Of a stretch of DNA of 64,000 nucleotides, positions 59,651 to 64,000 are shown in pieces; position 1 is the stretch's first letter; each line of letters opens with the position of its first letter. The stretch is taken from assembly GCA_018269075.1 (NCBI GenBank), contig JAFDVJ010000012.1:129187-193186 (forward strand), in the 5' to 3' direction. Source of the DNA: Acidobacteriota bacterium. Its GTDB lineage: Bacteria; Acidobacteriota; Blastocatellia; Pyrinomonadales; Pyrinomonadaceae. Below the pieces are notes generated by a model. That model did no database searches and was not told the DNA's origin. It worked only from the letters and a program-made list of their open reading frames with translations. The position numbers and the translations under genes were made by a program.

Positions 59651-62365
59651 TCACGGTAAAAACCGGTTTAGCACGAGATCGTTTCCGCCGGTCGAGACGG
59701 AAATCGTCCCGCGCTCGCCGGTCGTCAGAATTTTCGCGCCGGCCGCCTGCCAGCGCTCGACGATTTCCCGGTGCGGATGTCCGAACTGCGACGTCCGGCC
59801 GACCGACACGATCGCGTAGACGGCCCGCGTCGCGGCGACGAAATCGGCCGTCGAAGACGTCCGCGAACCGTGATGCGCGACCTTGACGACGTCGGCCCGC
59901 AGAAAATCCGGATTCGCCAGCAAAAGCCGCTCGGTTCCCTTTTCGATATCGCCCGTCAGCAGAAATCTCTTCGCCCCGAAAAGAACCCGCAGAACGACCG
60001 AATGATCGTTGTCCGCATCGGCGGTCGCCGAATCGTCGGCTTCGGGATACAAGACCTCGACGCGCGCCGCGCCGAAATCGAGGACGTCGCCGCGTTTGAC
60101 GACGACCGCTTCGATCCGACGGCGTCGCAGGACTTCGGCGAGCGCGGCGAAATCGGCGTCCGTCTCCGGCGTCCGGCCGAAAAAGGCGGCGCGTACCCGA
60201 AAATTCTTCGCGACGTCCGTCAGGCCCTGAATATGATCGGCGTCGGCGTGCGTCGCGAGGAGGTAGTCGATCCGCGAATAGCCTTTTTCCCAGAGAAACC
60301 GCGAGACGACCGTTTCGCCGATCGTCGCCGCGTCGGGCTCGAACAATTCCGGCTCCGCGCCGTCGCGTTGGACGTACTGCCGGCCGTAATTCGGCCGCCC
60401 GCCGCCGTCGACGAGCAGCGTTTCGCCGTTCGGAAACGTCACGAGCGCGGCGTCGCCCTGCCCGACGTCGAGAAAATCGATATGCAGCCGCCCATCCGGC
60501 GCGGGCGCGCTGAACGGGTGAAAGACGACGAGCGCGGCCAGCAGCAGAAACGCCGCCGCCGCGCCGCGAACCCGGAATTTCCGGCTTTTGTGATCGAGAT
60601 CGAACGGTCGCCAGCGGTTGACGGCGATCGTCAGAATCAGGACCGCCGCGAAATACAGCACGTAAATCGACCGCCACGGGCCGGTGTAGGCCGGCACGCG
60701 AAAGCCCGCCAGGTCGTTTTCGACGAAAACGCGCGGCACCGCGAGCAGCAGCCAGTTGAGCGCCTCGGTCAGTTTGACGAGCGGCAGCGCCGCCTGTTCG
60801 CTGACCGCGGCGAGGGCGAGCGCGATGACGGCCGCGAAGCTTTCGAGCGCGATGAAAAAGCCGACCCACAGATTGAGCAGGACCGAGGCGATCGAAACGC
60901 GGTGAAAGAACAGCACGCCGAGCGGCAAAAGCCAGGCCTGAACGATCAGCGAAACGAGAATTCCCTCGAAAAGATACCGGACGACGCCCTGCCCGCCCCG
61001 CGCTTCGAGAATTTTCAGATACGGCGATTTGAACAGGTTCGCCGACCAGATCTGGCGGCCGGATTCGATCCGCCACGCGGCCTCGCGCCAGTAAAGCATC
61101 TCGCAGAATCTCTTCAGCGGAACCGGCACGTTCGGCGGGAAGGGCGTCTCGGCCGACGGCTGCCATTCGCCGATCGCGCGCAGCTTTTCGACGAGCGGAA
61201 AAGCGCCGGCGACGATCGCCAGCACGCTCAGCAGGGTCAGTTGAAACGACTGCGAAAAAAGATCTTCGGGCCGCCAGACGAGCAGGAGCAGCGAGCAGAG
61301 CCCGACCGCATTGAGAAGCGACGCGCGGCGGTAAACGACCTGCGAAAACAGCACGCCGGTGAACATTATTGCCGCCCGGACGACCGGCACTTCGGCCCCG
61401 ACGGCGATCGAATAGGCCCATAAAAACCCGGCCGCGACGACGAACTGCCAGAACCTTCGACGCGTAAAAACCCGCACAAGCAGCAGCGCCAGACCGCCGA
61501 TAAACGTGATGTGGAGGCCCGAGATGACGAGCACGTGAAAAGTGCCGTCGTCGCGAAAAAGCTCGGCCGTCGGCTTGTCGAGAAAATATTTGTCGCCGAG
61601 CAGCGACGCGATCATAATGCCGGCCGTCGCGACGCCGAATCTTGAGCGAAAACCGTCGATCAGCGTTTTGCGCCAGTCGGAAAGCAGGCGGACCGGCGAA
61701 AAGCCGCGCGGGTCGGCGAGCTTTTCGACGTTCGCCGGACTTTTGACGACCGCCGTCGCGTCGATGCCCTGTCCGTCGAGCAGCTCTTTTTTCGAGACGA
61801 CGCCCGGATTGAGAAAGGCGTCTTCGCGCCGGAGACCGCAGGCGACGCGGATCCGGGCGCCGCCGCGCAGCTCGAGATTCCGGAATTCGTCGGCGGTCGG
61901 CTCGCTCGAAAGCTCGGCGAACAGCCGGACCGTGCCCGAGACTTTCCGCTCGACGCCGCCGGCAGTCAGTTTTTCGGCGTCCAGCAAGAGAAAAAAGCCG
62001 CCGGCGGCGCTTTCCGTTTCGCCGCGGACGACGCCTTCGACCTCGACCGGCTCGCCGGATTTGAGGCGGTTTTCATCGTAGATCCGTCTGATCCGGTCGT
62101 CCCGAACGGGCTGATTTCCGGTCTGAAAGCAGAACGTGCCGGCCGCGAAAAAGGCGAGCAGCAAAAACAGCGGGGCGGATTTTTTCCGGATGAAGACGAG
62201 CGCCGAAGCGGCGCCGAGCGCGGAAACCGCCGGCGCGATCCGCCAGTCGGTCGGAAGCTGCGCGCCGGCCACAACGCCGGCCGCAAAGGCGGCCGCCAGC
62301 CAGAAAAGCGGGTGGAGCGAAATTGTCGGGGAAGCGCTTTCCCCGCGTGAGGTTCGTTTGTCCAT
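59651..62365 (-). CDS. comEC: DNA internalisation competence protein ComEC/Rec2
   Basis: 904 aa. Hydrophobic N-terminal segments, a DUF4131-like soluble domain, the ComEC membrane domain (about 220-560; FHVLVISGLHITFIGGLALL) and a C-terminal metallo-beta-lactamase domain (about 635-904) with HADADH (LLATHADADHIQGLT) and VDVGQGDA-like FLDVGQGDAALVTF. The metal-binding motif is intact, so it may be active as a nuclease in DNA uptake. No other competence genes in the window. Confidence 0.95.
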   Translation of the reverse strand: MDKRTSRGESASPTISLHPLFWLAAAFAAGVVAGAQLPTDWRIAPAVSALGAASALVFIRKKSAPLFLLLAFFAAGTFCFQTGNQPVRDDRIRRIYDENRLKSGEPVEVEGVVRGETESAAGGFFLLLDAEKLTAGGVERKVSGTVRLFAELSSEPTADEFRNLELRGGARIRVACGLRREDAFLNPGVVSKKELLDGQGIDATAVVKSPANVEKLADPRGFSPVRLLSDWRKTLIDGFRSRFGVATAGIMIASLLGDKYFLDKPTAELFRDDGTFHVLVISGLHITFIGGLALLLVRVFTRRRFWQFVVAAGFLWAYSIAVGAEVPVVRAAIMFTGVLFSQVVYRRASLLNAVGLCSLLLLVWRPEDLFSQSFQLTLLSVLAIVAGAFPLVEKLRAIGEWQPSAETPFPPNVPVPLKRFCEMLYWREAAWRIESGRQIWSANLFKSPYLKILEARGGQGVVRYLFEGILVSLIVQAWLLPLGVLFFHRVSIASVLLNLWVGFFIALESFAAVIALALAAVSEQAALPLVKLTEALNWLLLAVPRVFVENDLAGFRVPAYTGPWRSIYVLYFAAVLILTIAVNRWRPFDLDHKSRKFRVRGAAAAFLLLAALVVFHPFSAPAPDGRLHIDFLDVGQGDAALVTFPNGETLLVDGGGRPNYGRQYVQRDGAEPELFEPDAATIGETVVSRFLWEKGYSRIDYLLATHADADHIQGLTDVAKNFRVRAAFFGRTPETDADFAALAEVLRRRRIEAVVVKRGDVLDFGAARVEVLYPEADDSATADADNDHSVVLRVLFGAKRFLLTGDIEKGTERLLLANPDFLRADVVKVAHHGSRTSSTADFVAATRAVYAIVSVGRTSQFGHPHREIVERWQAAGAKILTTGERGTISVSTGGNDLVLNRFLP

Positions 62366-62742
62366 AGCAGATATTTTTGGTGAAGTTTCTTCTGCCTTGA
62401 TTTTTTATTTTTCGGAACCGACGGCCGTCGAAACCGGCCGCATTCCGATCGCGCGGGCCGGCGTTTCAGGCGTCGGAATTTTACCGGTAATCAGCGTTTT
62501 CGGAGCGTTTCCGGATCGATTTTGACGGCGGTGCGGCCGTTTTTTCGACTTTTTCAGCGGTAAAATTCGCCTTTTAAGGTTTCGTCCCGTGATCAGCGAA
62601 CAAAAAGTCCTCGATCACTAAAGCTAATGGATTAATAAGCAAACGATAAATGTTGAAATAACGTGAGTTAATAATCCTCTTTCGATTTTGCATTAATTAT
62701 GTGCAAAATGCTAAAAGTTCATTAAATTGCAACATTTAGCTA
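62366..62742. other. Divergent-side spacer with AT-rich segment
   Basis: No gene. 62366-62580 is of average GC; 62600-62740 is strongly AT-rich with many ATTAAT/TTAATA words, next to the DnaA-box cluster. This is the spacer between comEC (minus) and ftsK (minus). Confidence 0.75.
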
Positions 62743-62801
62743 TGTGGAAAAGCAGTTTTCCACAGGTTTTTCCACCGTTTTCTGTGGAAAACTGTGGAAA
62801 A
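62743..62801. other. Cluster of five DnaA-box-like sites
   Basis: Sites: TGTGGAAAA 62743-62751, TTTTCCACA 62756-62764, TTTTCCACC 62768-62776, TGTGGAAAA 62783-62791 and 62793-62801. Four match TTTTCCACA exactly, allowed by the general consensus TTWTNCACA; one differs at the last base. Spacing of 10 and 12 bp places neighbours on the same helix face. An AT-rich stretch adjoins. Could be an origin of replication or a DnaA-titration/regulation site. Confidence 0.7.
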
Positions 62802-62812
62802 CTTTCGAGCCG

Positions 62813-64000
62813 TCAGTTGTTCATTTCTTCCATCTCCTGCAAATCCTCGTAAGCCTTTTGCAGAATGGGCCGCGCGCGCGTGCTGCCGTCCATTTCGCCG
62901 ATGTAGCCCTCGCGAACCATCGCGTCGAGAATGGCGGCGGCGCGGCCGTATCCGATCCGCAGATGACGCTGCAAAAGCGAGGTCGAGGCGCGCTTGGCGC
63001 TGACGACGCTGCGGACGGCGTCCCAGAAAAGCGGATCCTTACGGCCCGGCAGATCGCCCGAATCGTCGAGTTCTTCCTCGGTCTTCGTGATCGTCGTGTC
63101 GTATTCGGGATTGCCCTGCGATTTGATGTGCTCGACGATCTTGTGAATCTCTTTTTCGTCGACGAACGCGCCGTGGACGCGGATCAGGTTCGACGTCGCC
63201 GGCGGCAGAAACAGCATATCGCCCTTGCCGAGCAGGCTTTCCGCGCCGTTCGAATCGATGATCGTCCGCGAGTCGACCTTCGACGAAACGCGGAACGAGA
63301 TGCGCGACGGGAAATTCGCCTTGATCAGGCCGGTGATGACGTCGACCGACGGCCGCTGCGTCGCGAGCACGAGGTGAATGCCGACGGCGCGCGCCATCTG
63401 CGCGAGCCGCGTGATCGATTCCTCGACCTCCTTGCCGGCGATCATCATCAGATCGGCGAGTTCGTCGATGATGATCACGATGTACGGCAGCTTTTTCCAC
63501 GGCTCGCCGTTGTCATCGAACTGTTCGACCTCGTTGCGGCGCTTGACCTCGGCGTTGTAGCCGTCGATGTTGCGGACGCCCCAGCCGGCGAGATCGCGGT
63601 AGCGGAGCTCCATCTGCGAGACCGCCCATTTGAGCGCGACCGACGCCCGTTTCGGGTCCTTGATGATCGGCGTCGCGAGATGCGGAATATCGGCGTAAAT
63701 CCCGAGCTCGACCTGTTTCGGGTCGACCATGATGAACTTCACCTCGTCGGGCTTCGCCTTGTAAAGAACCGAGATGATGAGCGAGTTGACGCCGACCGAT
63801 TTGCCGGTGCCGGTCGCGCCGGCGATCAATAAATGCGGCATCTTCGTCAGATCGGCGACGTAGTTCAGCCCGTCGATGCTCTTGCCGAGCGCGATCGTCA
63901 GGAGCGACGGCGATTCCTTGAACTTCTTCGATTCGACGACCTCGCGCAGGTGAATGACCTCGCGCTCGCGGTTCGGGACCTCGATGCCGACGAAGGCCTT
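62813..64000 (-). CDS. ftsK: DNA translocase FtsK (3' part, cut by window end)
   Basis: The last 396 codons of an FtsK/SpoIIIE translocase; the front runs off the window. Walker A GATGTGKSVGVNS and Walker B IVIIIDELADLMM are present, with the gamma winged-helix domain at the end (DPLFWDAVRSVVSAKRASTS, LQRHLRIGYGRAAAILDAM). It pumps DNA through the septum and sets off XerCD recombination at dif. The stop codon is 12 bp from the DnaA-box cluster. Confidence 0.96.
   Translation of the reverse strand, partial: KAFVGIEVPNREREVIHLREVVESKKFKESPSLLTIALGKSIDGLNYVADLTKMPHLLIAGATGTGKSVGVNSLIISVLYKAKPDEVKFIMVDPKQVELGIYADIPHLATPIIKDPKRASVALKWAVSQMELRYRDLAGWGVRNIDGYNAEVKRRNEVEQFDDNGEPWKKLPYIVIIIDELADLMMIAGKEVEESITRLAQMARAVGIHLVLATQRPSVDVITGLIKANFPSRISFRVSSKVDSRTIIDSNGAESLLGKGDMLFLPPATSNLIRVHGAFVDEKEIHKIVEHIKSQGNPEYDTTITKTEEELDDSGDLPGRKDPLFWDAVRSVVSAKRASTSLLQRHLRIGYGRAAAILDAMVREGYIGEMDGSTRARPILQKAYEDLQEMEEMNN

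Follow-up and report, generated by a model that had tools for sequence, protein, structure and literature searches.

Of the systems described so far, the E. coli elements DARS1 and DARS2, two DnaA-reactivating sequences by which the replication initiator DnaA is recharged, come closest to the locus analyzed here. DARS1, situated between bioD and uvrB, comprises 101 bp (PMC5742627) and requires the flank beside its last DnaA box, box III (PMC4585315). In the published DARS model, DnaA is bound to boxes I and II, interacts head to head and releases ADP (PMC8682772). The DnaA consensus is given as TTWTNCACA (PMC4585315). Published conservation of DARS1/DARS2-like sites was found for Proteobacteria only, and B. 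subtilis lacks such sites according to the literature.

The window, i.e. the whole stretch of 64,000 nucleotides that was analyzed, corresponds to positions 129187-193186 of contig C33 in a 7.4-Mb, 169-contig MAG from the Pyrinomonadaceae (Acidobacteriota), the closest named relatives being Pyrinomonadaceae and gp4 Acidobacteria. Near its end, a spacer (62366-62812) is bounded by the start of comEC (62365) and the stop of ftsK (62813), both on the minus strand. The spacer and its borders comprise the following features:

59651-62365, minus strand: comEC, open, 904 aa (TIGR00361, 250 bits, above the cut-off)
62422-62666, minus strand: comEA relic (pseudogene) with in-frame stop and deletions (tblastn E = 8e-8 against ComEA of relative G003)
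62686-62694, plus strand: TTTTGCATT, right half of the second dyad after a 5-nt spacer; the inverted repeat beats all 500 shuffles
62687-62791, minus strand: conserved element of about 105 bp, positions 1-104 of model R1 (match G000:C33:191873-191977:-, E 2.5e-20; alignment A2)
62700-62708, minus strand: TTTTGCACA, left half of the second dyad, fitting the DnaA consensus
62709-62713, minus strand: TAGCA, the same in all 37 class copies aligned in A2, for which the collecting pattern required TAGCA
62726-62738, minus strand: weak IHF-like site at the best-scoring fixed offset over the alignment, suggestive only
62743-62751, minus strand: extra perfect DnaA box, TTTTCCACA, present only in some relatives (box scan, relatives)
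62756-62764, plus strand: DnaA box III, TTTTCCACA, same direction as box II, 12 nt further (box scan, geometry)
62768-62776, plus strand: DnaA box II, TTTTCCACC, one mismatch, inverted to box I (box scan, geometry)
62783-62791, minus strand: DnaA box I, TTTTCCACA (box scan, alignment)
62793-62801, minus strand: extra perfect DnaA box, TTTTCCACA, upstream of box I, common to the close relatives G001 and G003
62813-64000, minus strand: 3' part of ftsK, running out of the window (PF01580 and PF09397)

TTTTCCACA is, judging from its seven occurrences between dnaA and dnaN, the DnaA box of this organism. The preliminary description of the locus had reported four perfect boxes and one near-perfect box within 59 bp, next to AT-rich DNA in a non-coding spacer between ftsK and comEC. 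All five boxes are indeed accommodated in 59 bp (62743-62801), far above chance expectation, as 60 first-order Markov sequences, each as long as the window, contained at most two boxes per 59 bp versus the five observed. The AT-rich DNA beside them is likewise present (71% A+T over 62600-62740). The position between ftsK and comEC is correct, but the spacer is not purely non-coding as it includes the comEA relic. A search of this genome for ComEA did not yield any match. The pseudogene is followed by an open comEC, and the same-genus relatives G001 and G003 have an intact comEA.

Copies of the element were gathered in the class with spacings left free, the distance between box II and the motif being allowed a 30-nt range. 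Thirty-seven copies were aligned (A2) and a sequence-only model, R1, was built from the alignment. Read 5' to 3', the element starts with box I (TTTTCCACA), followed after 5 nt (6 nt here) by the inverted box II and after another 3 nt by box III. Beyond box III there is a variable stretch with an invariant AA, then ACTTyTAGCATTTTGCACA, 5 nt and TGCAA. The overall layout is thus I>, <II (+14/15 nt), <III (+12 nt) and, 57-60 nt from box III, a second inverted pair, GACTTyTAGCATTTTGCACA-N5-TGCAA. The order >,<,< at +14/+12 applies to 40 of 57 elements; the I-II spacing is 15 nt in this genome, versus 14 nt in E. coli DARS and the majority of relatives. The distance from box III to TTGCA amounts to 57-60 nt in each of the 57 copies, with variable sequence in between. 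At a spacer of 5 nt, the same as that between boxes I and II, the inverted repeat of the dyad scored 4.2 matches out of 7 for the class copies, the shuffle maximum being 2.5. Outside the class, where copies were found by R1, which was trained on the class copies and favors their geometry, the values were 3.7 and 2.9. The IHF-like match has its maximum at a single constant offset and is weak (6/9 on average). A structured small RNA was also considered and rejected, since no Rfam match reached the gathering score for the element and conservation ends after the dyad.

The core geometry is identical to that of both E. coli elements. In strain MG1655, the boxes of DARS1 lie at 813107(>), 813121(<) and 813133(<) and those of DARS2 at 2969135(>), 2969149(<) and 2969161(<), i.e. 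at +14/+12 in either case. This comparison was made after the element anatomy had been set and covered 300 kb of MG1655, in which both DARS, oriC, dnaA, nrdAB and the datA region were included. With one mismatch or none allowed in each box, no >,<,< triple with spacings of 9-24 turned up apart from DARS1 and DARS2. In 1.19 Mb of acidobacterial DNA, no further +14/+12 triple was encountered, the organism's own dnaA region featuring a 13/12 triple. Triples of perfect boxes across the phylum mostly have a shorter I-II spacing, and at least some of these sit at dnaA in Chloracidobacterium-like genomes. Among the E. coli stretches tried, R1 matched best to DARS1 (12.3 bits, core only). DARS1 and the acidobacterial element have in common the I> <II <III order at +14/+12, an intergenic location outside of oriC, a total length of about 100 bp and a region beyond box III, required in DARS1 and conserved in the acidobacterial element. 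They differ in that the E. coli boxes are less perfect, the I-II distance is 15 in the copy at hand and DARS1 lacks a dyad of the acidobacterial type at 57-60 nt from box III. In the DARS1 flank, a TTGCAC occurs 47 nt from where box III starts, 11 nt nearer than the acidobacterial dyad, and may be due to chance. DARS2 (rppH-mutH intergenic region) resembles the element in its core and in continuing past box III into additional sequence that is bound by bending proteins. However, it is 455 bp long and its IHF and Fis sites are defined, whereas the acidobacterial element is shorter and carries the weak IHF-like site and the dyad. As in a DARS, boxes I and II are opposed, box III is oriented as box II, the spacing is fixed (15/12 in the copy at hand) and the site is chromosomal, intergenic and apart from oriC. 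Its box III-side flank consists of the conserved fixed-distance dyad and the weak IHF-like match, not of the E. coli sites.

The preliminary description had proposed to check for conservation of the cluster next to ftsK in relatives. This holds in part: at least one recognizable part of it lies downstream of ftsK in about 20 of 30 relatives, mostly fixed-order boxes with the TTTTGCACA motif further on, while in others the element is located away from ftsK. GACTTyTAGCATTTTGCA is present in 14 of 60 relatives, once in each. In G010, G018, G020 and G024 the motif is found away from ftsK, ahead of a gene for a small helix-hairpin-helix lipoprotein, which is ComEA (TIGR00426 above the cut-off). Some R1 match at E<=0.01 exists in 150 of 162 genomes of the class Blastocatellia, including weak, box-only matches at dnaA. 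Matches at E<=1e-9 occur, by our count, in about 108 of the 162 and are usually single; eight of these genomes list two full-length copies. Of the 396 genomes sampled from the phylum, 76 have a match at E<=1e-7. Many of these lie outside the class and most matches extend over the full length; the full-length matches stem from many other acidobacterial families with differing neighbors and in either orientation. The class appears to include genomes that look like Chloracidobacterium (two-replicon assemblies); these and one genus of family f7 did not give a match at the strong threshold. Genome G212 from another acidobacterial family contains three copies at unrelated loci (L341, L342, L343); their boxes II and III are almost the same, and the dyad takes the variant form TTGAACA.

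In the Pyrinomonadaceae (f1) the arrangement is ftsK>, element>, comEA>. Nine genomes of families f2 and f6 (G037, G041, G044, G045, G048, G049, G052, G056, G057) have the element 3' of ftsK in opposite orientation, with comEA elsewhere. An ftsK-specific element is rejected, as it is missing beside ftsK in several genomes and present elsewhere, and specificity for comEA holds within f1 and fails outside. A search of FtsK loci of other phyla gave one weak match (L101, E 0.038), which we treat as chance. The independence of the element from neighboring genes argues for a site acting by itself.

We tentatively propose that the element of about 105 bp is a DARS-like DnaA-control element, a quite conceivable assignment that falls short of being probable. 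The resemblance is one of geometry, and membership in the DARS family is not claimed. The proposal is based on the box order and spacing (+14/+12 in most elements as in DARS1 and DARS2), on DARS1 as the best R1 match in the E. coli stretches tried, on the size close to that of DARS1 with its required box III-side flank, on the constant distance between box III and TTGCA together with a real second dyad, on full-length, usually single copies in many families with varied neighbors and both orientations, and on an intact element (E 2.5e-20) next to a dead comEA in the present genome. DnaA would bind to boxes I and II head to head, with a third DnaA on box III. The flanking dyad (TTTTGCACA-N5-TGTGCAAAA-like) at its fixed distance, probably brought in by a DNA bend, would complete a complex that may stimulate DnaA to replace its ADP by ATP, and this exchange might help to determine when initiation takes place at the dnaA-dnaN origin, a separate site. 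Several points count against a DARS. The I-II spacing in the copy at hand is 15 and not 14, the IHF-like site is weak and, in a manner fitting a promoter, the element accompanies comEA in 30 of 31 Pyrinomonadaceae. No Hda protein above the cut-off was detected in 30 relatives, such that the E. coli cycle making ADP-DnaA is not obviously present. Among the few assemblies that allow the comparison, the distance to the origin does not seem to be kept: the element is 229 kb from dnaA in G072 and 49% of the chromosome away from it in G264 (L338, C1:1136912), the sole single-contig genome with a match, albeit a weak one (E 8e-8).

The preliminary description had instead seen a candidate replication origin, be it the chromosomal oriC or a second one, and had named GC skew and the location of dnaA as checks. 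A dense group of DnaA boxes adjoining AT-rich DNA is indeed what an oriC offers. However, an even larger cluster is present on another contig, C93, in a dnaA-[10 boxes]-dnaN arrangement (seven TTTTCCACA, one TTATCCACA, two TTTTCCACT), which is the canonical oriC of this organism. One end of C93 is 13.5 kb away from this dnaA-dnaN spacer, and 131 kb separate the boxes of the window from the closer C33 end, which puts at least 144 kb between the two. They share the same 9-mer box and inverted neighbors, but the dnaA-dnaN locus has more boxes and same-order triples at other spacings (13/12 and others), and it did not give a full-length match to the element model. Along the 323 kb of C33 the GC skew is a weak, one-way drift without a turn at the boxes. 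In G076, which has long contigs, mean values from sampled 20-kb stretches change sign at dnaA (about -0.06 to the left, about +0.02 to the right) and remain at about -0.03 on either side of the homologous element. Furthermore, the element is placed very differently among genomes and its AT-rich flanks are inconstant among relatives. On account of the dnaA-dnaN box cluster and the GC skew we reject an origin at this site as extremely improbable; dense DnaA boxes beside AT-rich DNA need not mean an origin.

A DnaA-controlled promoter had been named as a second option, and conservation of the element argues well for a DnaA-binding site. DnaA on boxes I-III, possibly assisted by another regulator bound to the dyad, would then control the adjacent gene, i.e. 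the comEA-comEC competence operon in Pyrinomonadaceae and the adjoining gene in other families, and DNA uptake would be coupled to replication status. DnaA also acts as a transcription factor (PMC11317965). Among the 31 f1 genomes having both, 30 carry the element directly upstream of comEA and in the same strand, and it stays by comEA when ftsK is elsewhere (G010, G012, G017, G020, G023, G024). We nevertheless consider a promoter unlikely on the whole, while it is a live rival for the Pyrinomonadaceae. The arrangement in f2 and f6 and unrelated neighbors in f4, f7, f8 and other classes point away from it. In addition, the element persists in the present genome, where comEA is dead, and in G021, which did not give a ComEA match, G019 has ftsK and comEA together and the element on another contig, and inspection of the sequence downstream of the dyad did not reveal a recognizable -10 in a constant position. 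In the other families, none of the 12 comEA-bearing genomes with the element shows the association with comEA. A literature search for DnaA boxes with comEA returned nothing relevant. Still less probable is titration or inactivation of DnaA, by which the site would hold DnaA or promote ATP hydrolysis and so delay initiation. Several consensus boxes outside of oriC would suit this function: B. subtilis has intergenic clusters of consensus boxes outside oriC, which delay initiation according to PMC13220808 (citing Okumura 2012), and E. coli datA is likewise a non-origin DnaA-box locus. The B. subtilis clusters are described as several per genome, limiting initiation. Three to five boxes at one site per genome are, however, weak for titration. 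The fixed I/II/III spacing with a distant dyad rather indicates a specific complex, and a triple of this order and spacing was not found in a 50-kb MG1655 stretch with the datA region (glyY-queG).

Returning to a DARS-like element, it is possible, if doubtful, that Acidobacteriota have a true DARS system that is phylum-wide, mostly single-copy, built on the proteobacterial core geometry with a second DnaA-like dyad of its own and operated in hosts without recognizable Hda. DnaA nucleotide exchange on chromosomal sites would then be older than, or independent of, the proteobacterial system. With a conserved element of such core geometry throughout the Acidobacteriota, one could test how the DnaA ATP/ADP switch evolved, and the element would offer a compact single-copy target for studying this switch where no Hda is recognizable.

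Some further observations concern other parts of the genome. A DnaA-like protein at 119.4 kb of C33 was considered as Hda and rejected; the gene (about 119.2-120.0 kb, L005:9964-10776, 9 kb outside the window) encodes an ATPase that resembles helicase loaders of the DnaC/DnaI type and whose N-terminus putatively binds zinc. Within the window, G+C drops to 0.45-0.52 between 46000 and 54000, compared with 0.55-0.64 in the rest. Pairs of TTTTCCACA boxes on C22 and C132 apparently reside within genes. Three TTTTCCACA boxes in direct orientation at G000:C112:43483-43526 (L030:9984-10027) possibly represent another DnaA site.
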